A stretch of 64,000 nucleotides of DNA, from NCBI GenBank assembly GCA_029210585.1, contig JARGFP010000021.1, positions 20,759 to 84,758 of the forward strand, in the 5' to 3' direction. Below are positions 27,171 to 37,129 of this stretch, piece after piece. Source of the stretch: Bacteroidales bacterium (lineage in GTDB: Bacteria > Bacteroidota > Bacteroidia > Bacteroidales > GCA-2748055). Numbering within the stretch: position 1 is the stretch's first letter; each line of letters starts with the position of its first letter. The notes beneath the pieces were generated by a model. It did not search any database. It worked only from the letters and a program-made list of their open reading frames with translations, and was not told where the DNA came from. A program made the position numbers and the translations under genes.

Positions 27171-27602
27171 ATGAGAACATTCTACAATATACTGGCCATT
27201 GTGATGTTTCTCGGGACAACAGGGTTTTTGTCACAGGATACATCGGATGAAGTGATGGAGTGTGCTGACAAGGCCGGGAAATCGGCTGTCTACCTGAAAG
27301 ACTTCCAGGTGGAATTGCCGGCTGCCGAACCGGGTGAACGTCCGCCCATGTTCCGACAGGCACTGGTACTGCGCGGAAATAATATTTACCGTTTCAATCT
27401 CTGCAATCAACAGGGCGAGGCCGTGATCAGGATCTATGACAGTTCCCGCATGTTGCTGTCCTCTTACGATACCGCCTCCGGGGAGGAATACAACCCCATC
27501 CAGTTCCTCTGCCAGAAAACCGGTCCGTACAACATTGTGATCACCTTCAAAAACGGCACCGCCGGTGAGGCGATCGGGATCATGAGTCATGTGAAACGGT
27601 AG
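27171..27602 (+). CDS. Small exported protein of unknown function
   Basis: The protein has 143 residues with an N-terminal hydrophobic segment (FYNILAIVMFLGTTGFLSQ) that looks like a signal peptide. The mature part has a beta-sandwich feel: ALVLRGNNIYRFNLCNQQGEAVIRIYDSSRMLL, YNPIQFLCQKTGPYNIVITFKNGTAG, similar in pattern to pre-peptidase C-type domains that bind the cell envelope. Two cysteines in the mature part could pair. It is the last gene of the plus-strand run, 4 bp after the lipoprotein gene. Confidence 0.7.
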   Translation: MRTFYNILAIVMFLGTTGFLSQDTSDEVMECADKAGKSAVYLKDFQVELPAAEPGERPPMFRQALVLRGNNIYRFNLCNQQGEAVIRIYDSSRMLLSSYDTASGEEYNPIQFLCQKTGPYNIVITFKNGTAGEAIGIMSHVKR

Positions 27603-27632
27603 CAGTTATTTGGCTGTTAAGTCCAATAACTG
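27603..27632. terminator. Weak hairpin between convergent genes
   Basis: CAGTTATTTGG (27603-27613) can pair with CCAATAACTG (27623-27632) with a one-base bulge. There is no clear U-run after it, so its role in termination is uncertain. Confidence 0.3.
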
Positions 27633-27746
27633 TGTTACGCTTGTTCTAAAATTGGTCATTTACAACAGTAAGCCCACATTTTTCAAACTGCGCAGCCTTG
27701 TTATTGAACTTTTTAGTTCAAACACATAGTTATATGGACAGGCTGG

Positions 27747-28790
27747 TCAGTGGCCCCCCATGAACTTCCTGATCCGCCAGCGCTGGAGAATACTCCACAA
27801 CACAGCCCATTTATACCTTGCACCGGGCTTGAGCCCGAACAGGTAGAGGTGGCGGTTCAACTTCGTCCCGGGGCCCGGCAGTTCCGGTCCCAGGATCCGC
27901 TGCTCACAACGCGCTGCAAGCCTTTGCACTGCCTTGTTTTCTGAGACCAGCTCCCGGTATGGCTCCGGTACCTCCGCTGCAAACCAGCGTTCAGCCAGCA
28001 ACAGGGCAATCCCGGCCATCCGCTCGAGTCCGAGGGAACGCATTTTTTCAAGAATCTTTGCATGGTCGAGCTCCCACTGCTGCAGTGCCTCTGCCACATC
28101 GCGCAGCCAGAACAGCCTGAAAAACTGGTGCAGGCAGCCGTGGTACACCAGGTAGATGAAGGTGGTGGCCCGATCGAACACGACGAGCGCTTCGTTATGA
28201 AGTTCCACCCGTTCCGTCGCATCGCGGATCGCCGGTTCATCGGCACGCCGCAACAGTTCATGCACATAGATGCCGTAGTGCAACTCGATAAACATCCGCT
28301 GCTCCCGGTTGTAGAACCCGACATCCTTCTTGTACCGGGCGTAGATCCGCTCCTGCCGCGGGGTAAGCCTGCGCGGATAAGACTGGCTGTACCCGCAGCC
28401 TGTCAGCACACGGGCGGTCCGGTCTATATCGGCCCGGTTGATCAACAGGTCGATATCGTTGCAATGACGCAGTCCCACATCCCCGTAAAGCATTTGTGCC
28501 AGCACCGAACCCTTCAGGGGAATGGCAACGACACCCTCCTGTTTCAGCAGTTGGATCAGTCGCGCCGTTTCGGCAGAGAGTTGCAACGAATGAAGGGTCT
28601 TTTGCTGCAACAGTTTTTTCCACTGTTCCTGCTGCTCCTCCGGAAGCTGCTCCCGCACCGCTGACGACAGAGGCATCAGGCGGTGTCGCTGAAACATCTG
28701 CAGCAGCCTGTCCGCATCGGTTCCCTCCGGCAGGGAGGTCAACTCCCCCCGCAGTAAACGAAACAATACCTCTTGCTCTGTCGTGAACAT
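27747..28790 (-). CDS. Nucleotidyltransferase-fold protein (NTP_transf_5 family), lasso-cluster associated
   Basis: The protein has 347 residues and no signal peptide. The catalytic motif of the polymerase-beta-like nucleotidyltransferase fold is visible: IPLKGSVLAQMLYGDVGLRHCNDIDLLINR, with the G...R...D-x-D-L-L pattern. The C-terminal half is helical (TFIYLVYHGCLHQFFRLFWLRDVAEAL), as in the family often found near asparagine-synthetase-like, PqqD-like and HPr-kinase-like genes in RiPP loci. It shares strand with the cyclase gene, with a KilA-N gene between. Its G+C is much higher than that of the rest of the cluster, so it may be resident or acquired separately. It could add a nucleotide to the modified peptide, which is inference. 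Confidence 0.8.
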   Translation of the reverse strand: MFTTEQEVLFRLLRGELTSLPEGTDADRLLQMFQRHRLMPLSSAVREQLPEEQQEQWKKLLQQKTLHSLQLSAETARLIQLLKQEGVVAIPLKGSVLAQMLYGDVGLRHCNDIDLLINRADIDRTARVLTGCGYSQSYPRRLTPRQERIYARYKKDVGFYNREQRMFIELHYGIYVHELLRRADEPAIRDATERVELHNEALVVFDRATTFIYLVYHGCLHQFFRLFWLRDVAEALQQWELDHAKILEKMRSLGLERMAGIALLLAERWFAAEVPEPYRELVSENKAVQRLAARCEQRILGPELPGPGTKLNRHLYLFGLKPGARYKWAVLWSILQRWRIRKFMGGH

Positions 28791-28910
28791 TCTTAATTTC
28801 GGTAATTTATCAATATATACTTTGCACTTGTGATTAGAATGGAGTATTCAGCTCTTTGAAAAGTGTATTGGTGGCCAGAAGCAAAACTCTTTCCATTAGA
28901 TGAAAGATTA

Positions 28911-29687
28911 TCATTTAGTGAGATTTTTCAGATTTGAATTATTAACCAAAGAAGTCATTTGAGTAATGGCGATCTGGTTAAGCTGCTTTAAACGTTGAGA
29001 TTGGTTTAAGTCGTGCCTGATCAATAAGGCATTAATGCTTTCAAGATTAGATAGGACCACCAGTTGTTCCAGGGTTGCATAATCCCGCATATTGCCTTTA
29101 GCCTCCTGATTTTCCTCTCGCCAATTTGAGGCTGTCGTGCCAAAGAGAGCCATATTAAGTAAATCAGCTTCCGAAGCATATACCGACGAAGTTTGCTTTG
29201 CTGTGAGTTTACCAGGGATTAATCTTTCTTTAATGGCATCGGTGTGAATAATATAATTAACTTTTGCCAGGGTCCGTTGCAAGTTCCAATCGAGTTGATG
29301 GCGATCGTTTTCTTGCTGTTTTAATCGTTTGTATTCCTGAATAAGGTATACTTTAAACTCGGCACTTATCCACATCCCAAATTCCAAGGCTATGTCAACA
29401 TGTGCATATGTACCACCATAACGACCTGCTTTTGCCTTTACGCCTATCGCATTGGTCTTTTCGGTCCACTCTTTAACACTGATTTTGTAATTATTCAGAC
29501 CGGCTTGATTTCTAATTGTGGCAAATTCGCCATAATTAAAATCAGGATTATTAACAGATTCCCATACGCCAAGAAATTCAACTGTATTACGGTTTCTTAG
29601 CCAATCTGAAATAAAAAAATCACCATCTTTTTCCTGAATAACTGCTATTCGGGTTCCTTTAACATCAATTTCTTTATTCTTTGTCAT
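28911..29687 (-). CDS. KilA-N domain protein
   Basis: The protein has 258 residues. The KilA-N DNA-binding domain fills the first 130 residues: FFISDWLRNRNTVEFLGVWE, NYGEFATIRNQAGLNNYKISVKEW, AIGVKAKAGRYGGTYAHVDIALEFGMWISAEFKVYLIQEYKRL. The C-terminal helical part (YATLEQLVVLSNLESINALLIRHDL) is found in chromosomal members. The family is typical of phages and of mobile elements in Bacteroidota, where it may regulate or process DNA. The gene is AT-rich and sits between two genes of the presumed lasso cluster, so it is probably an insertion. No transposase or inverted repeats are visible around it. Confidence 0.88.
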   Translation of the reverse strand: MTKNKEIDVKGTRIAVIQEKDGDFFISDWLRNRNTVEFLGVWESVNNPDFNYGEFATIRNQAGLNNYKISVKEWTEKTNAIGVKAKAGRYGGTYAHVDIALEFGMWISAEFKVYLIQEYKRLKQQENDRHQLDWNLQRTLAKVNYIIHTDAIKERLIPGKLTAKQTSSVYASEADLLNMALFGTTASNWREENQEAKGNMRDYATLEQLVVLSNLESINALLIRHDLNQSQRLKQLNQIAITQMTSLVNNSNLKNLTK

Positions 29688-29769
29688 AGCGCCATTTTAA
29701 CATTCCAAATTAATCCTTTTCAGCATCTTGCACAAAAAATATATGTTTTCGCTGCCTCTGTACATATTC

Positions 29770-31659
29770 CTACCACCTGATCCCCGACCGGAACGTTCCC
29801 TCCCGTTCCATCTCCTGCAACAGCAAAATCTGCAGTGAGTTGAGAAACCCTACAGGATAAACTGGTTGCCTGAGGTTCCTGCGATTTTCAATTTTGCTCT
29901 GCCATTCAAGCATCCTTGCATAATCAAGATAATGATATCGATTTTTTTCCTGCGACCTTTTTATAAGTTTCTCGATTGAATTATGATCTTCAATTATTCG
30001 TAATTGAAGTGACGGCAAGGTATTTCCAAATTTATCTTTCCGGGTCCTTATGCTTTCAGGGACTTTACCTTTCAACACCTCCCTGTAAATATACCTGTCT
30101 TCACCAGGCCTTGTTTTAAATTGTCTTGGCAATTGGTAATAAAATTCAATCAAATCCAGATCCAGTAAAGGATATAGATACTCGATATTAAAATAGCGTG
30201 CAGTATGATATGAAAATTCAAGGCGTTGCGAAAAAGCAGATGAGCTGAGACGCATCAACATATTCTCTTTCATACTTGATCCATTTTGTCCCATTCTCAG
30301 CTTTTTTGTCCGGTCTTTTAGTAGATTTGGATCTTTATAGAACGAACTGACAGCAAAATTTTCCAGTCTTTTATTCACGATCTTGTTTGATATGCCTGGT
30401 TCATTGAGGAGCCACCTTCTGCTGACAGGAAAAACTTTCAACAGTATGTATTTCAGGTTTTTTCTCAGGCTAGCCGTATTATTATTATGTAGAATAAAAT
30501 TCCGCAAATCAGCCCACTCTGCTTCTGCAATCAACTCCTGATAGAGGCCTGAATTCTTAGCTGTAATACCCTCATCACCTCCATGCCCTGAAAAAAGATA
30601 GCGTATATCCATATCTTTCACCGATTTCAACAACTGGTCAGAAAGCATATGATAGCTGCCTTGAGAGGGTCCTGACTGAATAAATATATCATTGCTCAAT
30701 GAGTTCAAAACACCACTTCCCTCACCGGTAATGATAGAGTGCTCATCTGTACCCAAATAATCACAAACTTCCATTGAAAACTTTCTTTCATCTTTATAGG
30801 GAAACAAAGTGTTATGAAAAGATTCAGGCAAACCATGAGAAAATGCGTGGAAAGGAACACCAGCATCCTGACATGCCATGTATAAGAGGCTTGAGATACC
30901 AGAAGAATCCAAACCCCCACTTAATTCAGAGCCTACAGAATCTAACGAAGACATTCGCTTCAATACAGCATTTTGAAGAAATTGAAAAAAAACTTTTACT
31001 TCATCTCCATGATATCCAACCGTAGAATCAGGTGTGCTCACCAAGTGCCAATACCTGGATTTTTTAATGTGAGTATTGTAATACAAGCGCTCTGCAGGCT
31101 CCAGTTTTCGAATGTTTTTGTAATAAGTTCGGAAAGATTCAGATCGCGTTGCAGTAATGCAATCTGACAAATACATCTCATCAATTTCAAAAGAATCAAT
31201 TTTTGTCAACGAGGCTATTTCTGTGGAGAAGGCAATAAAAGAAGTTGTTTCAAAATAATACAATGGTCTGGCTCCCAGCTGATCCCTTATCAGTACCAAT
31301 TGATCATCAAACTTATCATAAACCGCAGCAACAAAATCTCCCCGCAATAATTGTGGATTATTAACAATCCTTTCAATTTGATGATAAGTAAAGCCTATAT
31401 TTCTTTCGCTTTCTTGTTCTTTTCCGGATTCATCAAATCGAGCATTAATTGCTCCAAGGTATCGTTCATTTTCTATAATCGTACGCTCCTCTTCATCAAT
31501 CAATCCGGATAATTTTTCAGCTGCCAATGCAAATCTATTAACATATGATCTTTGCATCTCCATAGATGCATCATAAGCGACAAGCATATTTTCAAGCAAT
31601 CTTTTATCAACTTTTTGCTGCTTCTTCATTAATACCCCACAAAAAGATCGTATTGGCAT
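29770..31659 (-). CDS. Asparagine-synthetase-like lasso cyclase (C protein)
   Basis: The protein has about 629 residues from the ATG at 31659. An N-terminal class II glutaminase-like domain (RSFCGVLMKKQQ... LVLIRDQLGARPLYYFET, AFSTEIASL) is followed by the ATP-pyrophosphatase domain: VGSELSGGLDSSGISSLL is the nucleotide-binding loop, and FSGHGGDEG and YLYPLLDLDLIEFYYQLP are further AsnB landmarks. The Cys in FCG is not at the mature N-terminus, so glutamine hydrolysis is unlikely, as in known lasso cyclases. Those enzymes adenylate a Glu/Asp side chain of the core peptide so the N-terminus closes a ring. The divergent neighbours B1, B2 and precursor support this reading. The frame stays open to 31734, but that start would overlap the opposite promoter. 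Confidence 0.85.
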   Translation of the reverse strand: MPIRSFCGVLMKKQQKVDKRLLENMLVAYDASMEMQRSYVNRFALAAEKLSGLIDEEERTIIENERYLGAINARFDESGKEQESERNIGFTYHQIERIVNNPQLLRGDFVAAVYDKFDDQLVLIRDQLGARPLYYFETTSFIAFSTEIASLTKIDSFEIDEMYLSDCITATRSESFRTYYKNIRKLEPAERLYYNTHIKKSRYWHLVSTPDSTVGYHGDEVKVFFQFLQNAVLKRMSSLDSVGSELSGGLDSSGISSLLYMACQDAGVPFHAFSHGLPESFHNTLFPYKDERKFSMEVCDYLGTDEHSIITGEGSGVLNSLSNDIFIQSGPSQGSYHMLSDQLLKSVKDMDIRYLFSGHGGDEGITAKNSGLYQELIAEAEWADLRNFILHNNNTASLRKNLKYILLKVFPVSRRWLLNEPGISNKIVNKRLENFAVSSFYKDPNLLKDRTKKLRMGQNGSSMKENMLMRLSSSAFSQRLEFSYHTARYFNIEYLYPLLDLDLIEFYYQLPRQFKTRPGEDRYIYREVLKGKVPESIRTRKDKFGNTLPSLQLRIIEDHNSIEKLIKRSQEKNRYHYLDYARMLEWQSKIENRRNLRQPVYPVGFLNSLQILLLQEMEREGTFRSGIRW

Positions 31660-31721
31660 AGCTAATTTTATCTTGTAAATCTGGTCACTCCGCACATATT
31701 CCTGAAAGCTTAAAATTACCT

Positions 31722-31729
31722 TATCTTTG
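31722..31729 (+). promoter_or_regulatory. Promoter -7 box in front of the kinase gene
   Basis: TATCTTTG matches TAnnTTTG. It overlaps the TTG at 31727, which therefore is unlikely to be the kinase start; the next in-frame TTG at 31742 is favoured. No clear -33 box. Confidence 0.5.
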
Positions 31730-31741
31730 CACAAAAAACAA

Positions 31742-32647
31742 TTGATCCATAATTATAAATACCTGGCATTCGGACTCAAAATACAATCTGAATTATGTTT
31801 TCCAGAATTACACTCTTCTGAATTTAAAGATCCGGATGTCCAAATCAGCTTTGGTAAAAATCCCAAAGAATTGACCGATATCAAATCTGTCGGGGTGCTT
31901 TTTCAGGCAAAAAAGAATGATTTTCTTTTCAGACTTGATACTGTTGGCTCCTTTAGGGTTCAAAATGGTAACAGCATCATTATTGAACCTTCCAAAAGTG
32001 CAACAGAAGAAGAGGTACGGTTATTCCTTCTTGGATCAGCCATCGGGGCATTGTTACAACAGCTTGACCTGTTCACATTTCATGGGAGCACAGTTATAAA
32101 AGACGATATTGCTTATGTTATAGGAGGGAAAAGTGGCACAGGAAAATCAAGTCTTGCAGCCACGCTGTTAAACAAAGGTTTTCAATTACTGGCAGATGAT
32201 ATTTCAATTATAAAAAACATAAAAGGAATACCGATGGTTTACCCAGGAATTCCACATTTAAAATTATGGGCTGATGTCATGGAAGCCTTGAAGCTGGATA
32301 TAGAATCATATCCAAAGGTAAGGCCCCAAATTCTTAAATACCGAAAACCCGTCCTGCATAAATTCTCTAATAGTCCTCATAAGCTTGGATCTATCGTAAT
32401 ACTCAACACAAAAAACACATTAGATTTTGAAATAGAAGAAATCAAAGGATCTAAAAAATTTGAACTGCTCAAAGAAAATACATACAGGTACCGATTCCTT
32501 GAGGGACTTGAAAAAACAAACGAACATTTTCATGCGGTAACCTTACTGGCTGGTTCATCTAATCTCTTTCTTATAAAGCGCCCAGGCACACCGTTACAAT
32601 TATTTGACCTTGCAGATTTCTTTATCAAAAATATCGTTGATTCCTGA
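31742..32647 (+). CDS. HPr-kinase-like peptide kinase of the lasso cluster
   Basis: The protein has about 301 residues. The fold resembles the catalytic domain of HPr kinase/phosphorylase: FTFHGSTVIKDDIAYVIGGKSGTGKSSLAATLLNKG is split here as FHGSTV with the conserved His, the Walker A loop GGKSGTGKSS, and FQLLADDIS with the acidic metal site. In the paeninodin-type lasso pathway a homologous kinase phosphorylates the C-terminal Ser of the precursor; the precursor found here also ends in Ser. The start is uncertain: TTG at 31742 gives MIHNYKYLAFGLKI, and no in-frame ATG lies close by. The stop precedes the sulfotransferase ATG by 19 bp. Confidence 0.82.
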   Translation: MIHNYKYLAFGLKIQSELCFPELHSSEFKDPDVQISFGKNPKELTDIKSVGVLFQAKKNDFLFRLDTVGSFRVQNGNSIIIEPSKSATEEEVRLFLLGSAIGALLQQLDLFTFHGSTVIKDDIAYVIGGKSGTGKSSLAATLLNKGFQLLADDISIIKNIKGIPMVYPGIPHLKLWADVMEALKLDIESYPKVRPQILKYRKPVLHKFSNSPHKLGSIVILNTKNTLDFEIEEIKGSKKFELLKENTYRYRFLEGLEKTNEHFHAVTLLAGSSNLFLIKRPGTPLQLFDLADFFIKNIVDS

Positions 32648-32666
32648 GCCTGTTAATAATCACCCG

Positions 32667-33515
32667 ATGGAAAGAGACAACAGGAAAATAGTGTGGATTG
32701 CATCATACCCGAAATCCGGGAACACATGGTTCAGACTTGTGCTTTCACATCTTTTGGAAAAAAATGATATTCCACTAAATATTAACAATATATATTCTGC
32801 TTCAATTGCCAGTTCAAGAGTTCACTTTGATAATATTTCCGGCGTTTCCGGTTCCGATCTCACCTCTGAGGAAATCGATGCAATCCGTCCGGAAATATAT
32901 AGGCGCATGGCAGTGGAATCTGAAGACCTGATCTTTAAAAAAGTCCATGATGCATGGACGATCAATGAGGCTGGAAAACAAATCTTCCCGACAGATATTA
33001 CAAAGGCCGTCGTATACATGATCAGAAACCCGCTTGATGTTGCAGTTTCATATGCATTTCATTCCGGCACTAACTTTGCAAACATTATTGAGGATATGAG
33101 CAACAGTAAACATGCGTTGGCTGATAAACCCGGAAAGCTACACAACCAACTCAGACAAAAACTTCTGAATTGGTCAGAACATGTAATAAGCTGGATTGAT
33201 TCGTCCGGGATGCCGGTTAAAGTTATCCGATATGAAGATCTGATAGAAAATCCTTTTAAGGAATTTAGTACCGCATTCAACTTTATCGGGATGAATTATG
33301 AAGCTGAGGACCTCATTCGGGCAATAAAAAATTCTGAATTTAGCAAAGTATCCCAACAGGAAGAAAAATTCGGATTCAAGGAAAAGCCTTTACAAATGAG
33401 CCTGTTTTTCAGAAAAGGAGAACCGGGTGATTGGAAGAACCATCTTAGCGTTCAACTAGCGGATGAAATAAGGAAAAAGCACAGTGATATAATGAAAAGA
33501 TTCAATTATTTGTGA
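32667..33515 (+). CDS. PAPS-dependent sulfotransferase in the lasso cluster
   Basis: The protein has 282 residues. All three landmarks of cytosolic-type sulfotransferases are present: the 5'-phosphosulfate loop SYPKSGNTWFR (residues 13-23), the 3'-phosphate motif YMIRNPLDVAVSY (about 115), and the C-terminal RKGEPGDWKNHL (about 250-261). His in FKKVHDAWT is a candidate catalytic base. The enzyme moves sulfate from PAPS to a hydroxyl or amine. Its position between the peptide kinase and the B1/B2/precursor genes suggests the lasso peptide as acceptor; Tyr12, Ser13, Thr5, Thr11 or Ser16 of the predicted core are options. The ATG at 32667 is chosen because homology begins at once after it. Confidence 0.88.
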   Translation: MERDNRKIVWIASYPKSGNTWFRLVLSHLLEKNDIPLNINNIYSASIASSRVHFDNISGVSGSDLTSEEIDAIRPEIYRRMAVESEDLIFKKVHDAWTINEAGKQIFPTDITKAVVYMIRNPLDVAVSYAFHSGTNFANIIEDMSNSKHALADKPGKLHNQLRQKLLNWSEHVISWIDSSGMPVKVIRYEDLIENPFKEFSTAFNFIGMNYEAEDLIRAIKNSEFSKVSQQEEKFGFKEKPLQMSLFFRKGEPGDWKNHLSVQLADEIRKKHSDIMKRFNYL

Positions 33516-33553
33516 TAATCTAACATTTAAGACAATTACTTACGTATTTTTTG

Positions 33554-33561
33554 TAAATTTG
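33554..33561 (+). promoter_or_regulatory. Internal promoter -7 box for the B1-B2-precursor genes
   Basis: TAAATTTG matches TAnnTTTG and lies 31 bp before the B1 ATG at 33593, in the only sizeable gap of the plus-strand lasso genes. It would let B1, B2 and the precursor be made separately from the kinase and sulfotransferase. No convincing -33 box at the right distance. Confidence 0.5.
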
Positions 33562-33592
33562 ATTGGGAGGAAAAGAAGCGCGAAAGGAAACC

Positions 33593-33895
33593 ATGAAGAA
33601 AAATAAAACAGAAAAGTTATCTGTTAATTCTGTTGTGCAAAGGAATCCTGCTCAGGAATTCTCCAAAATTGATGAAGAAATCATCATGCTCAATGTAAAC
33701 AAAGGTGAGTATTATGCGTTAAACGACGTTGCCTCCAGAATTTGGGAAATGATCGACACACCTGTTCAAGTAAACGACCTTTTAAACAAATTGATTGAAG
33801 AGTATGAAATTGACACGCAAACATGCCAGCAAGATACGCTCAGATGCCTGGAAGATTTCAGAAATAAGTCAATCATTATCATTGAGAATGAATAA
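33593..33895 (+). CDS. PqqD-like RiPP recognition protein (lasso B1)
   Basis: The protein has 100 residues. It has the PqqD/RRE winged-helix pattern: an N-terminal strand region VVQRNPAQEFSKIDEEIIMLNVNKGEYYALNDVASRIWEMID appears here as the segments EEIIMLNVNKGEYYALN and ASRIWEMIDTPVQVNDLL, followed by a third helix and IDTQTCQQDTLRCLEDF. B1 proteins bind the YxxPxL motif of the leader peptide and hand it to B2 and the cyclase. The ATG at 33593 is preferred to the TTG at 33563. The gene overlaps the B2 start by 8 bp (33888-33895). Confidence 0.9.
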   Translation: MKKNKTEKLSVNSVVQRNPAQEFSKIDEEIIMLNVNKGEYYALNDVASRIWEMIDTPVQVNDLLNKLIEEYEIDTQTCQQDTLRCLEDFRNKSIIIIENE

Positions 33896-34274
33896 AAAGC
33901 TTTGGAAATACAGGAAACTGATCTGGCTGGTTGTAATTGTTTTTACTAAATACCAGATATTGAGAAGTTTTACAAGTGATAAAGCTTTTTTAAATTCAAT
34001 TCGCCGGGAAAAAGAATCTTGTCGTTTACCTGATGAATCGAACATGCAACCTTTTAAAAACTACTCCCGTCTAATTGATATTATAATCAATAAATTAGCT
34101 CCCTCATCAACCTGTGTCATCCGAAGTTTGGTAAAAAGGGATGTTTTATCAAATTATGGATTAAAAACAGAGGTGTTTTTTGGTTTGTTAAGAAAAGATA
34201 ATGAAATTCGTGCTCATGCCTGGCTATCAACTGAGCACGATCATGGCTATTCAAAAGTATATAAAGTATCATGA
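33888..34274 (+). CDS. Transglutaminase-type leader peptidase (lasso B2)
   Basis: The protein has 128 residues. A hydrophobic N-terminal stretch (LIWLVVIVFTKYQIL) precedes the core of the B2 cysteine protease fold: SSTCVIRSLVKRDVLSNYG carries the catalytic Cys, TEVFFGLLRKDNEIRAHAWLS carries the catalytic His, and an Asp follows in EHDHG. B2 cuts the precursor after the leader. The protein stops only about a dozen residues after the His, shorter than most relatives. It overlaps B1 by 8 bp and shares ATGA with the precursor gene (34271-34274), tight coupling expected for a precursor-processing pair. Confidence 0.85.
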   Translation: MNKKLWKYRKLIWLVVIVFTKYQILRSFTSDKAFLNSIRREKESCRLPDESNMQPFKNYSRLIDIIINKLAPSSTCVIRSLVKRDVLSNYGLKTEVFFGLLRKDNEIRAHAWLSTEHDHGYSKVYKVS

Positions 34275-34405
34275 AGCATAGGAAAGAAACTATAAAGAAA
34301 AAATGGAATCAACCAAAATTGGAATCAATTCCCTTTAAAAATACACTCACTGGAGGTTTCGTGGACACTCTTGCTGAAGATGCCACGTATTCACTCCCGT
34401 CTTAA
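34271..34405 (+). CDS. Lasso-type precursor peptide (44 residues)
   Basis: This short ORF encodes 44 residues and overlaps the B2 stop by 4 bp. Leader residues 12-28 read WNQPKLESIPFKNTLTG: W12-x2-P15-x-L17 fits the RRE-binding YxxPxL motif with Trp for Tyr, and Thr27, twelve residues after the Pro, fits the conserved Thr at -2. The predicted core is residues 29-44, GFVDTLAEDATYSLPS. Gly1 would form the macrolactam with Glu8 or Asp9, leaving a tail of seven or eight residues. The C-terminal Ser matches the phosphorylation site of kinase-containing lasso clusters. The call rests on motif fit and position. An alternative core starting at Gly28 would put Glu at position 9. Confidence 0.82.
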   Translation: MKHRKETIKKKWNQPKLESIPFKNTLTGGFVDTLAEDATYSLPS

Positions 34406-34416
34406 AACCCAAATTT

Positions 34417-37071
34417 ATGAAATACCTAATTGGATTCATTACTGCATTTATATTCCTGGCTGGTCTAAATGGTCAGGGTATTATTTCATCAGGAGCGATA
34501 AATGGGAATGGTGATATTACCATCATTCAATCAGAATCTTCATCTAATGGAGATATCTATGTATTTGGGCATTTCACTGGCACAATTGACTACCCCTCTG
34601 TTCTGGGCACCTCTTTAGGTGGTCGTGATTATTTCATTGCAAAAATTGACAGTTCACTTAAAGTACAATGGTTAAGTCAACTATCCAGTCCGTTAAGTGT
34701 TTATGTATACGGCGGAATAACAGTAGATGCAAATAATGATGTGTATGTTACGGGGGGATTCAGAAATTATATCAGGGTCAGTGATGCAGACAGCATATTC
34801 TCCAGTGGTGCATTTGATACGTTCCTCGCAAAATATGATGCTTCCGGTACACCACTTTGGTTAAAAGCTGTTGGTGAAGGAGGTCGTAATGAAAGACCTA
34901 ATGCCTTATCTGTTGATCTGAGCGGCGACCTTCTCATCGGAGCTTTCTTTTCAGATAGCATTCAATTCGATGATAATCTCACATTATACAGTGATGATGG
35001 CATAGATGATTATTTCTATGGAAAGTTTGATCCCAATACAGGGGATAGAATCTGGGCCAGACAGATCATTGGTATTAACAATAACCTCTCGGGTCGAATA
35101 TTCGATATAGTGGCCACATCAGATTCATATTACATGACCGGTCCTTACGCAGATTCAATAGGGTTTGAAAATGATACCATCGTATCCGTCAACAATAATT
35201 ATGACGTGCATTTAATTAAGACCGATCTGGATGGAAATGTGAACTGGGTTCGCTCAATTAAAGGTGATCTGGCAGACAATTCCTGGTCCTTGACCACGGA
35301 TGAGAATGATAATGTGTATATAGCTGGCTGGTATGATACGCCTGCCGGACTTATAGTAGATTCAACTGATTCAGATGAGGTTACTTTCCCCGGCAGTGAT
35401 GGAGATGAGCAACTGAACGTTTTTATAGCCAAATACGATACGCAAGGAACACTCCAATGGATAAGAGCTGGTGACCGTGCAAATCATGGTGGAATTGTTG
35501 ATGAAAAAATATTTGATATAGAAATTTTTGGCGGGCAGTTAAATGTCTGTGGCTATTATGAAAATGTATTCACTTGGGGAGCCAACACCTTAACAAGTAA
35601 TGGCCCTGGTGACTTCAATATGTTTGTTGCAAGTATGACCTTTAACGGTGAGTACCGTAGCGCTGTCAGCTACTCAAGACAGGAAACAAAAAATGGTTAT
35701 GAGGCTTCGAGAACACTATTTCAAAGAGGAGATGAGCTTTATGTTGTCATTGAATCAACCAGCACTAGACTCGTGTATCAGGATAGTATTTACGATAATA
35801 CAGACGGCTTATTGATGGTAGCTATCCTTCAAATAGGATGCCTTCCTTTAGCAATAGGCAATACAGTAGTAACTGATGTGGTAGGATGTAATGGGGATAG
35901 TAAAGGTTCTATTCAAATTGTTGTATCAGCCGATTCTTCGGGCTGGGGGTCACCCTATCTATTTTCTATTGACAATGGGAGCACATACCAGGAAAGTCCG
36001 TTCTTTGATGAATTACCTGCCGGAACATATAATCCTGTAATTTATGATAGCAGGGGGTGTACTTTCGCTGGCGATCCGATTGTGATTGATCAGCCTGATC
36101 CAATTGTTATAGATACAAATTCTGAGAGTGTTCTTTGTTTTGGTGACAATTCAGGATCAATTACGATCAATGTAACAGGAGGAGTGTCACCCTACCAGTA
36201 CTCATCTGATGGTGGTACCACATTCCAGGCAGCTTCAACTTTCTCAGCCCTCACATTCGGAGATTATCCTATCCAGGTACTTGACAGCGATGCCTGTCTT
36301 GCAGAGGGAGATACGATTGAAATCACTCAACCCGAATCACCACTCACCATTGCTCTTGTATCAACAACCGATGTACCATGCAATGGAAAGACGAATGGAG
36401 CGATTGAGGTCAGTGCTGATGGTGGAACTAAACCATACGAATATTCCATCGACGGTTCCAACTACCAGGCAGAAGCAACTCTTGGTTCACTTTCGGCAGG
36501 CACATATACACCTTTGGTATTGGATGCAAATGATTGTGTAACGCAATTAGACGCCGTTGTAACTATTGATGAACCGAAACCTCTTACAATATCCATCGAT
36601 AGTATCAAATCCAAACAAGGAAATGACCTTGGATTAATAATTGCCACTGCATCAGGTGAAACAGGAAATTATACTTTTTCTATTGATCCGGCTATTGGAA
36701 ATCAGGATGAACCTGGTAAATTTACTAATCTTGATAAAGGTATTTACACTGTCACGGTGACAGATGATTTATGTAATAGTACTGATTCTGAAAGTTCTAT
36801 TGAGATTGTAGGTTTCTTTAACTTAGAATACATCCCAGCCTCCATCTACCCGAACCCGTCCTCCGGGATGGTCACGGTGGAATTCACTACCGACAAGCAG
36901 GAGATGACGCTGGAGATTTTTAGTATCGACGGAAGAAGCGTGATGCACCGACAGGTGTACAGCGCTGGCGGGCAGGTTAGGGAAACACTGGATCTTTCAG
37001 GGCTCGACAAAGGCATGTATATGCTCCGGATCGACCAGCAGACCCTCACCAGTGGTGTTGTACTGAAGTAG
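34417..37071 (+). CDS. Type IX-secreted SprB-repeat protein
   Basis: The protein has 884 residues with a signal peptide (MKYLIGFITAFIFLAGLNGQ). The N-terminal half has beta-propeller-like SBBP/PQQ-type repeats (DIYVFGHFTGTIDYP, DVYVTGGFRNYIRV, NVYIAGWYDTPAG). Then come three SprB-type repeats built on C-G/N-G...GG..PY.YS.DGG...L..GTY (near VGCNGDSKGSIQI, LCFGDNSGSITI and PCNGKTNGAIEV). The end is a type A type IX sorting domain (IYPNPSSGMVTVEF ... GLDKGMYMLRI ... SGVVLK). It should be exported and anchored at the surface. The gene starts 11 bp after the precursor stop. Base composition changes abruptly at about 36838: the sorting domain is GC-rich, the rest AT-rich. Confidence 0.88.
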   Translation: MKYLIGFITAFIFLAGLNGQGIISSGAINGNGDITIIQSESSSNGDIYVFGHFTGTIDYPSVLGTSLGGRDYFIAKIDSSLKVQWLSQLSSPLSVYVYGGITVDANNDVYVTGGFRNYIRVSDADSIFSSGAFDTFLAKYDASGTPLWLKAVGEGGRNERPNALSVDLSGDLLIGAFFSDSIQFDDNLTLYSDDGIDDYFYGKFDPNTGDRIWARQIIGINNNLSGRIFDIVATSDSYYMTGPYADSIGFENDTIVSVNNNYDVHLIKTDLDGNVNWVRSIKGDLADNSWSLTTDENDNVYIAGWYDTPAGLIVDSTDSDEVTFPGSDGDEQLNVFIAKYDTQGTLQWIRAGDRANHGGIVDEKIFDIEIFGGQLNVCGYYENVFTWGANTLTSNGPGDFNMFVASMTFNGEYRSAVSYSRQETKNGYEASRTLFQRGDELYVVIESTSTRLVYQDSIYDNTDGLLMVAILQIGCLPLAIGNTVVTDVVGCNGDSKGSIQIVVSADSSGWGSPYLFSIDNGSTYQESPFFDELPAGTYNPVIYDSRGCTFAGDPIVIDQPDPIVIDTNSESVLCFGDNSGSITINVTGGVSPYQYSSDGGTTFQAASTFSALTFGDYPIQVLDSDACLAEGDTIEITQPESPLTIALVSTTDVPCNGKTNGAIEVSADGGTKPYEYSIDGSNYQAEATLGSLSAGTYTPLVLDANDCVTQLDAVVTIDEPKPLTISIDSIKSKQGNDLGLIIATASGETGNYTFSIDPAIGNQDEPGKFTNLDKGIYTVTVTDDLCNSTDSESSIEIVGFFNLEYIPASIYPNPSSGMVTVEFTTDKQEMTLEIFSIDGRSVMHRQVYSAGGQVRETLDLSGLDKGMYMLRIDQQTLTSGVVLK

Positions 37072-37101: not shown

Positions 37102-37129
37102 GCGGAGCCACAAGCTTCGCTCTTTTTTT
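37102..37129 (+). terminator. Rho-independent terminator after the SprB-repeat gene
   Basis: Stem GCGGAGC (37102-37108) with GCTTCGC (37114-37120), loop CACAA, then a T-run at 37123-37129. It ends the plus-strand lasso/T9SS transcription unit. Confidence 0.8.

Follow-up and report, generated by a model that had tools for sequence, protein, structure and literature searches.

What does a lasso-peptide locus make when it encodes, beside the lasso machinery, a kinase, a sulfotransferase and a nucleotidyltransferase? The question is raised by a block at 27.7-37.1 kb of a 64,000-nucleotide stretch of DNA from a Bacteroidales bacterium (the window), which sits on contig JARGFP010000021.1, here C30, of a 116-contig, 4.6-Mb genome. 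We designate its genes C (cyclase), B1 (leader-binding protein), B2 (leader peptidase), A (precursor), K (kinase), S (sulfotransferase of the 3'-phosphoadenosine-5'-phosphosulfate [PAPS] type), N (nucleotidyltransferase-type protein) and T (a surface protein with a predicted beta-propeller and a sorting tail of the type IX secretion system [T9SS]). What we observe here are these genes and their motifs, the precursor open reading frame (ORF), the gene order and a linkage repeated in relatives. The block is very likely a lasso cluster with kinase and sulfotransferase, and it probably directs the production of a small lasso peptide, phosphorylated and sulfated, that meets the propeller protein at the cell surface. 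An initial annotation had placed the cluster at 29770..34405; the proteins it named are all present, but N (27747-28790) lies outside those coordinates, beyond a KilA-N gene, and the end point 34405 is the end of the precursor ORF, which was left unnamed there.

The minimal lasso machinery named in that annotation, an AsnB-like cyclase, a PqqD-like B1 and a Cys/His B2 peptidase, was borne out by family searches. The best NCBIfam match of C is the lasso cyclase model NF033535 (1.5e-55, 189 bits versus a cut-off of 525 bits), and the protein retains an intact SGGLDSS (30901-30921) and SGHGGDEG (30568-30591); its first in-frame ATG is at 31659, and an ORF from a TTG extends to 31734. B1 matched NF033536 at 73.9 bits (cut-off 80), and B2 matched NF033537 at 31 bits (2.8e-07, cut-off 33), with the motifs TCVIRSL (34110) and AHAWL (34212) and with Cys and His conserved in the B2 alignment. 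In a phylogenetic tree, C is not placed among non-lasso families and groups with cyclases of other lasso loci in a five-row clade with support of 98/97, in a tree whose deeper forks are weak and in which only one of three AsnB-type controls, L001, resembles a full AsnB. A RiPP-unrelated AsnB gene (RiPP, ribosomally synthesized and post-translationally modified peptide) was rejected, as B1, B2, the precursor and the tree speak against it.

The candidate substrate is encoded by A (34271-34405), which the initial annotation had overlooked and whose first 4 bases are shared with the end of B2. Its leader carries W-x-x-P-x-L (WNQP at 34304), followed by NTLTGG and then FVDTLAEDATYSLPS. The register that gives the core GFVDTLAEDATYSLPS, with Thr at -2, leads to Gly1, an acceptor at Glu8/Asp9, Tyr12 and a C-terminal Ser16 within the terminus YSLPS. 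The alternative, one Gly earlier, gives Gly1, Glu9 and Leu at -2 and reproduces the 'GG...E9-D10' arrangement seen in many relatives; position -2 is known to hold a residue other than Thr in rare cases (PMC10368454, in excerpt). Thus A has the aromatic-xxP leader motif, Thr(-2) and an acceptor Glu/Asp within positions 7-9, E8 versus E9 being ambiguous. With a precursor score that was built after the window precursor had been seen and that does not include a C-terminal Ser, the top value was reached by 47 of 41,412 ORFs near clusters and by 0 of 26,706 ORFs away from them, which argues that the precursor is not a chance ORF. Of the top-scoring ORFs, 40/47 end in Ser, compared to 6,182/69,418 ORFs overall.

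Relatives keep precursor-like ORFs as well. Among 132 loci, selected for K plus one or more core lasso genes, a search that did not require a C-terminal Ser returned 80 candidate rows in 72 loci; no candidate was found in the other 60, some of which end at contig edges. After seven of the 80 rows had been dropped by judgement (L062, L067, L199 twice, L204, L205 and the minus-strand row of L036), a C-terminal Ser was counted in 39 of 48 precursors with S in the locus and in 19 of 25 without it. Identity across the 12 precursors of family f97 is 80% for the 17-residue leader end and 29% for the core minus its first two and last residues; such a constant leader joined to highly variable cores within a single bacterial family has the look of a diversifying system. 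Individual precursors show further variation. L188 (11346-12071) holds three tandem candidates that end in YRT, YRT and YRS, from which the kinase may take Thr as well. The acceptor Glu lies 11 residues past the leader Thr in L035 (3615-3806), L044 (1019-1168), L048 (9709-9969) and L215 (5795-5986), so that cleavage falls at Thr(-3) or the ring has 10 residues, more than the 7-9 of known lasso rings. In L044 (1019-10187), labelled as a Bacillota metagenome-assembled genome, three tandem precursors and two kinases accompany a Bacteroidota-like leader, and the record is possibly misbinned.

The tailoring enzymes are equally recognizable. K, annotated earlier as an HPr-kinase-like kinase, scores 31.6 bits with Hpr_kinase_C, just below the Pfam cut-off of 33.3, and its best match in the Protein Data Bank (PDB) is weak (Hpr kinase 3tqf, 0.0033); the His-Lys-Asp-Asp residues are kept, with HGS at 32081, GKSGTGKSS at 32126 and LADD at 32189, and among 35 homologues H119, K140 and D158 are invariant and D157 is conserved in at least 90%. 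The PAPS sulfotransferase assignment of S likewise stands, its motifs SYPKSGNTW (32703), KVHDAW (32940), RNPLDVAVS (33024) and RKGEPGDWK (33411) being intact; we take these to represent the 5'-phosphosulfate-binding loop, the 3'-phosphate-binding motif, the catalytic His and GxxGDWK. Relatives of S in the PDB include aryl sulfotransferases (SULT1C3) and Teg12, Teg14 and StaL, members of the same PAPS sulfotransferase superfamily with low similarity to S that act on peptide natural products, their substrates being non-ribosomal glycopeptides. The predicted nucleotidyltransferase is also present, with LKGS at 28506-28517 and NDIDLLI at 28440-28460, and N adjoins C in many relatives, e.g., L148 and L215.

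As to whether the gene set travels together in related genomes, a point that the initial annotation had raised, S occurs in 70 of the 132 loci and lies directly 3' of K in 69 of these 70, and the A-T pair recurs in 21 other genomes; kinase-sulfotransferase lasso clusters are therefore common, and S is linked to K in loci of several phyla. At E up to 1e-3, 64 of 393 genomes of the order gave a match to the kinase query, in many cases a weak one; the kinase alignment, applied at E up to 1e-15, found matches in 15/395 genomes of the class, 29/395 of the phylum and 17/25 of family f97. Several of the closest kinase relatives carry a Bacteroidales label, and no relative was found in the viral contigs searched. 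Two neighbouring observations concern purD. Beside purD in G003, a cluster-less genome of the same genus, L213 (2915-5274) encodes a kinase-like protein of greater length, next to which lies an N-like gene; a cyclase was not found there, and this site is perhaps another HPr-type kinase system. In L224 (5223-8482), where purD lies directly beside S and K, neither C, B1 and B2 nor a precursor or propeller could be found; they may have been lost together.

A second gene that the initial annotation had missed is T, linked with the precursor at a distance of 11 bases. Pfam matches of T are SprB (1.3e-20), SBBP (1e-05) and Por_Secre_tail (8e-15), the last being the C-terminal sorting domain of type IX cargo. 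The propeller was modelled with a mean predicted local distance difference test score (pLDDT) of 85.7, and its closest structure is the Friedel-Crafts alkylase CylK, aligned at CylK residues of about 247-659. The propeller starts at T residue 19 and so leaves no room for the CylK N-terminal domain, the region in which Arg105 lies (PMC8916777, in excerpt); T instead has an SprB stalk and a T9SS tail. A CylK-like alkylating enzyme was thus rejected, and because CylK's first domain is missing we interpret T as a stalk that carries a putative binding head.

In 22 of 77 precursor rows, that of the window included, A is followed immediately by a propeller-type T; the 22 rows come from different genomes, and all have K and S. 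The 77 rows include four precursors added by eye (L035, L175, L215 and a third in L044). Several of the 22 T genes run off the fetched stretch or contig, and of the one in L156 only 92 residues are visible, with a weak match. No such gene follows A in 54 rows, among them all rows from named non-Bacteroidota records, and one further row ends at a contig edge; in L175 and L178, both of the Bacteroidota set, an ABC (ATP-binding cassette) transporter-like protein stands behind A, as judged by eye. The sorting tail was found by Pfam in 7/7 of the relatives' T proteins scanned. In a selection of eight family members, the propeller is present in 2/2 with the cluster and 0/6 without it, and in L179 and L182 a propeller gene lies behind C in stretches with no purD match. 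Together with the site in G001 described below, these findings argue for a real link of A and T, and T is a likely, predicted functional partner of the peptide. Literature searches found no paper that combines lasso peptides with type IX secretion or the T9SS.

Comparison with G001, a cluster-less genome of the same genus, delimits the block: DNA similarity to the window stops at 27,596 and resumes at 36,844, and the stretch from N to the propeller has no counterpart. Lasso genes are absent from the G001 site, and the T9SS protein encoded there carries SprB and tail without a propeller; it matches T from residue 428 onward, with the SprB part finding its counterpart at the protein level only. 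The G+C content (GC) is 33-40% from the KilA-N gene to the propeller and 58.5% in N, compared to 47-52% in the flanks. A second C-K-S set was found on contig C91 (L030, 1-3595) at 50-54% GC (C and K), S being cut by the contig end. C91 shares with the window 74 bp at 98.6% (29770-29843, the end of C) and 37 bp at 94.6% (31708-31744, the promoter, its TAnnTTTG box included), whereas the genes are strongly diverged (K 60% identity, C 37%) and the cyclase branch length is 1.12 in the window versus 0.54 in C91. B1 was seen once in the genome, so the assembly yielded no remaining part of this second cluster. This pattern looks like replacement of one version by another, and the short near-identical DNA suggests recombination or a strain allele; C91 may equally be a paralogue.

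From these data we infer every chemical step, the modification sites and the role of T as follows. K, S, B1, B2, A and T would make up a single operon bounded by the TATCTTTG box and the 37.1-kb hairpin. B1 would bind the leader (WNQPKL...), and K would phosphorylate the linear precursor at the C-terminal Ser16, a likely site by analogy with known lasso kinases; S would move sulfate from PAPS, most likely onto Tyr12 beside the acidic ring residues. B2 would then cleave the leader behind Thr-Gly, and C would link Gly1 to Glu8 (or Asp9). N may decorate the phosphate; PsmN adds one or two hexoses to phospho-Ser (PMC8498205, PMC9266682, both in excerpt), and a sugar would be more likely than the nucleotide that the initial annotation had considered. 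T would be exported via the type IX system and, outside the cell, bind, display or protect against the peptide. For the lasso peptide with phosphate and sulfate proposed in the initial annotation, the machinery, the precursor and the kinase/sulfotransferase pair are thus supported, but the chemistry remains predicted. A bolder version is tentative and, in our view, doubtful: a surface-displayed system in which a doubly charged (phosphate and sulfate) Bacteroidota lasso peptide, for which the operon encodes no exporter, is captured or displayed outside by a dedicated T9SS CylK-type propeller on an SprB stalk, with enzymes, precursor and propeller swapped between strains as one block.

Several findings weigh against a phosphorylated and sulfated peptide with a surface partner. 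C, B1 and B2 score under the NCBIfam cut-offs and K under Pfam's, and the cyclases of L036 and L040, from the same family, fall outside the window's clade, so that vertical descent alone does not account for the inheritance. The related kinase BsfK modifies Ser3 and not the last Ser (PMC10368454, in excerpt), and in five Bacteroidota-set loci with K and S (L045, L156, L159, L163 and L178) the last residue of the precursor candidates is something other than Ser or Thr. Phe or Thr takes the position of Tyr in several f97 cores, and L050 has a DEAY tail in a locus without S. Regarding T, the order A-T-purD is itself conserved in several families, with purD following T in f1, f97, f42 and UBA5072 loci, so part of the A-T linkage perhaps reflects inherited gene order; T9SS tails occur widely, with 103 matches in this genome; and 12 other Bacteroidota-set loci have K, S and a precursor without T directly behind A, two of them with a propeller gene adjoining C, while a thirteenth, L158, ends at a contig edge.

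The sulfate is likely on the peptide, and the odds that it sits on Tyr12 are about even. E-D-x-Y or E-D-x-x-Y directly past the ring is found in many tails (EDATY in the window; also L035, L044, L045, L150, L153, L156 and L159), and Tyr occurs in 27/48 tails with S in the locus versus 6/25 without (Fisher p 0.013, a test that ignores kinship), which makes Tyr a favoured and not a general site; as an obligatory site it was rejected for its absence from 21/48 tails in loci with S. It is unlikely, by our estimate, that sulfate goes elsewhere, near or onto the kinase product (the C-terminal Ser/Thr region) or onto a sugar added by N, with T a mere neighbour. The near-constant adjacency of K and S would fit such an account, as would the C-terminal Ser being the commonest shared hydroxyl, those tails that lack Tyr, and the presence of both N and S in most f97 loci; yet Tyr is enriched in tails with S, the T linkage recurs, and S is found in loci without detected N (L032 and L033), so that an N-derived sugar is not needed at every locus, and sulfation of the sugar only was rejected.

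It is quite improbable that this is an ordinary phospholasso cluster whose S acts on another cell component and whose T is a vertically inherited, purD-side surface protein. While the sulfotransferase family of S is large (4,501 of its proteins among 4,780 scored candidates), sorting tails common and purD a frequent neighbour of T, S is tied to K across several phyla, and the propeller is missing from all six cluster-less family members tested and from the G001 site despite SprB and tail there. Very improbable, finally, is a degenerate or silent cluster in which the copy in the window is foreign, has replaced the native C-K-S copy now on C91 and is decaying: the low GC from the KilA-N gene to the propeller, the KilA-N insertion between C and N and the long cyclase branch speak for it, but the reading frames are all open, C, K, S, B2 and N have intact motifs, and the precursor shows the expected features.

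The features of the block are collected in Table 1. C, the KilA-N gene and N lie on the minus strand, and K, S, B1, B2, A and T follow on the plus strand from 31.7 kb; the divergent layout noted there in the initial annotation is real and includes a TAnnTTTG box, a pattern present in this genome along with type IX sorting domains. The box is weak evidence alone because the window holds 0.34 such patterns per kb of strand. Similarly, 10 terminator-like sites were found versus a shuffle mean of 6.6, with another at 34454 inside T, and the hairpin behind T is thus a consensus match only. The ABC gene at 23.1-26.3 kb belongs to a conserved flank also found in G001 and so is not a member of the block, and no ABC exporter occurs within the K-to-T operon. 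No Rfam family matched in 27-38 kb. The KilA-N gene, which also matches a phage regulator family (phrog_2657), has no counterpart at 1e-10 in the other loci compared and is probably a later insertion outside the pathway.

Table 1. Positions in the window of the genes, domains and signals of the predicted lasso block, with match values
Feature	Position	Strand	Evidence
N, NTP_transf_5 protein of the nucleotidyltransferase family, as in pseudomycoidin-type clusters	27747..28790	-	Pfam PF14907 5.4e-46
KilA-N domain gene between C and N	28911..29687	-	PF04383 2.5e-16; PADLOC PDC-S22 9.3e-118; phrog_2657 4.8e-52
C, AsnB-like lasso cyclase	29770..31659	-	PF00733 (Asn_synthase) 1.5e-32; NF033535 1.5e-55; motifs; tree
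TAnnTTTG promoter-like box TATCTTTG of the kinase operon	31722..31729	+	Bacteroidota-type pattern match
K, HPr-type peptide kinase, TTG start inferred, 31727 alternative	31742..32647	+	PF07475 (Hpr_kinase_C) 1.4e-07
S, PAPS-type sulfotransferase	32667..33515	+	PF00685 (Sulfotransfer_1) 1.1e-25
B1, PqqD-like leader-binding protein (RiPP recognition element, RRE)	33593..33895	+	PF05402 (PqqD) 4.5e-18; NF033536 8.8e-21
B2, leader peptidase with Cys and His	33888..34274	+	PF13471 (Transglut_core3) 5.6e-08
A, 44-residue precursor MKHRKETIKKKWNQPKLESIPFKNTLTGGFVDTLAEDATYSLPS	34271..34405	+	leader motif, precursor score, B2 overlap
Predicted core GFVDTLAEDATYSLPS	34355..34402	+	register argued from relatives
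T, T9SS-sorted surface protein, predicted beta-propeller, SprB repeats and Por_Secre_tail	34417..37071	+	Pfam
Propeller domain of T	34471..35826	+	
Intrinsic terminator-like hairpin with T run, 3' of T	37102..37120	+	consensus match only
Region lacking DNA similarity to the corresponding site of G001 (same genus)	27597..36843	.	DNA comparison

Among known systems, paeninodin (PadeK) and the ThcoK/SyanK clusters share with the window the cyclase, the split B1/B2, the His-Lys-Asp-Asp HPr-type kinase and a precursor ending in Ser (PMC9266682, PMC8498205, in excerpt); unlike paeninodin, the window adds the sulfotransferase and the T9SS propeller gene, has its precursor at the far end and a divergent cyclase, and lacks an operon ABC exporter. 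The Bradymonas bsf cluster likewise combines a kinase (BsfK) and a nucleotidyltransferase in a lasso cluster, and its own features are the action of BsfK on Ser3, an Ile(-2) leader and an ABC transporter (PMC10368454, in excerpt). The pseudomycoidin cluster shares a kinase (PsmK) and a nucleotidyltransferase-type protein (PsmN) with the window; it comes from another phylum and, unlike the window, is without a T9SS protein. To our knowledge, the pseudomycoidin cluster has no sulfotransferase. The initial annotation had held the gene combination to be without a characterised precedent, and this holds in part: PMC8498205, citing Zhu 2016c, had earlier described lasso clusters of Firmicutes that contain sulfotransferase and nucleotidyltransferase genes, the same kinds of extra genes in another phylum with other layout and partner genes, and the excerpted account names no sulfated product. 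Phrase searches of the literature found no paper on a sulfated lasso peptide or its enzyme, and none is mentioned among the term matches in the 2026 review PMC13352647; one paper names lasso peptide, kinase, sulfotransferase and nucleotidyltransferase jointly, and 15 name both lasso peptide and sulfotransferase. A sulfated lasso peptide, if true, would therefore be a new tailoring for the class, as far as the literature searches reached. The recurring precursor-propeller pair would provide a testable outside partner for the lasso peptides of this phylum, and it bears on the question of what phosphorylated lasso peptides do.

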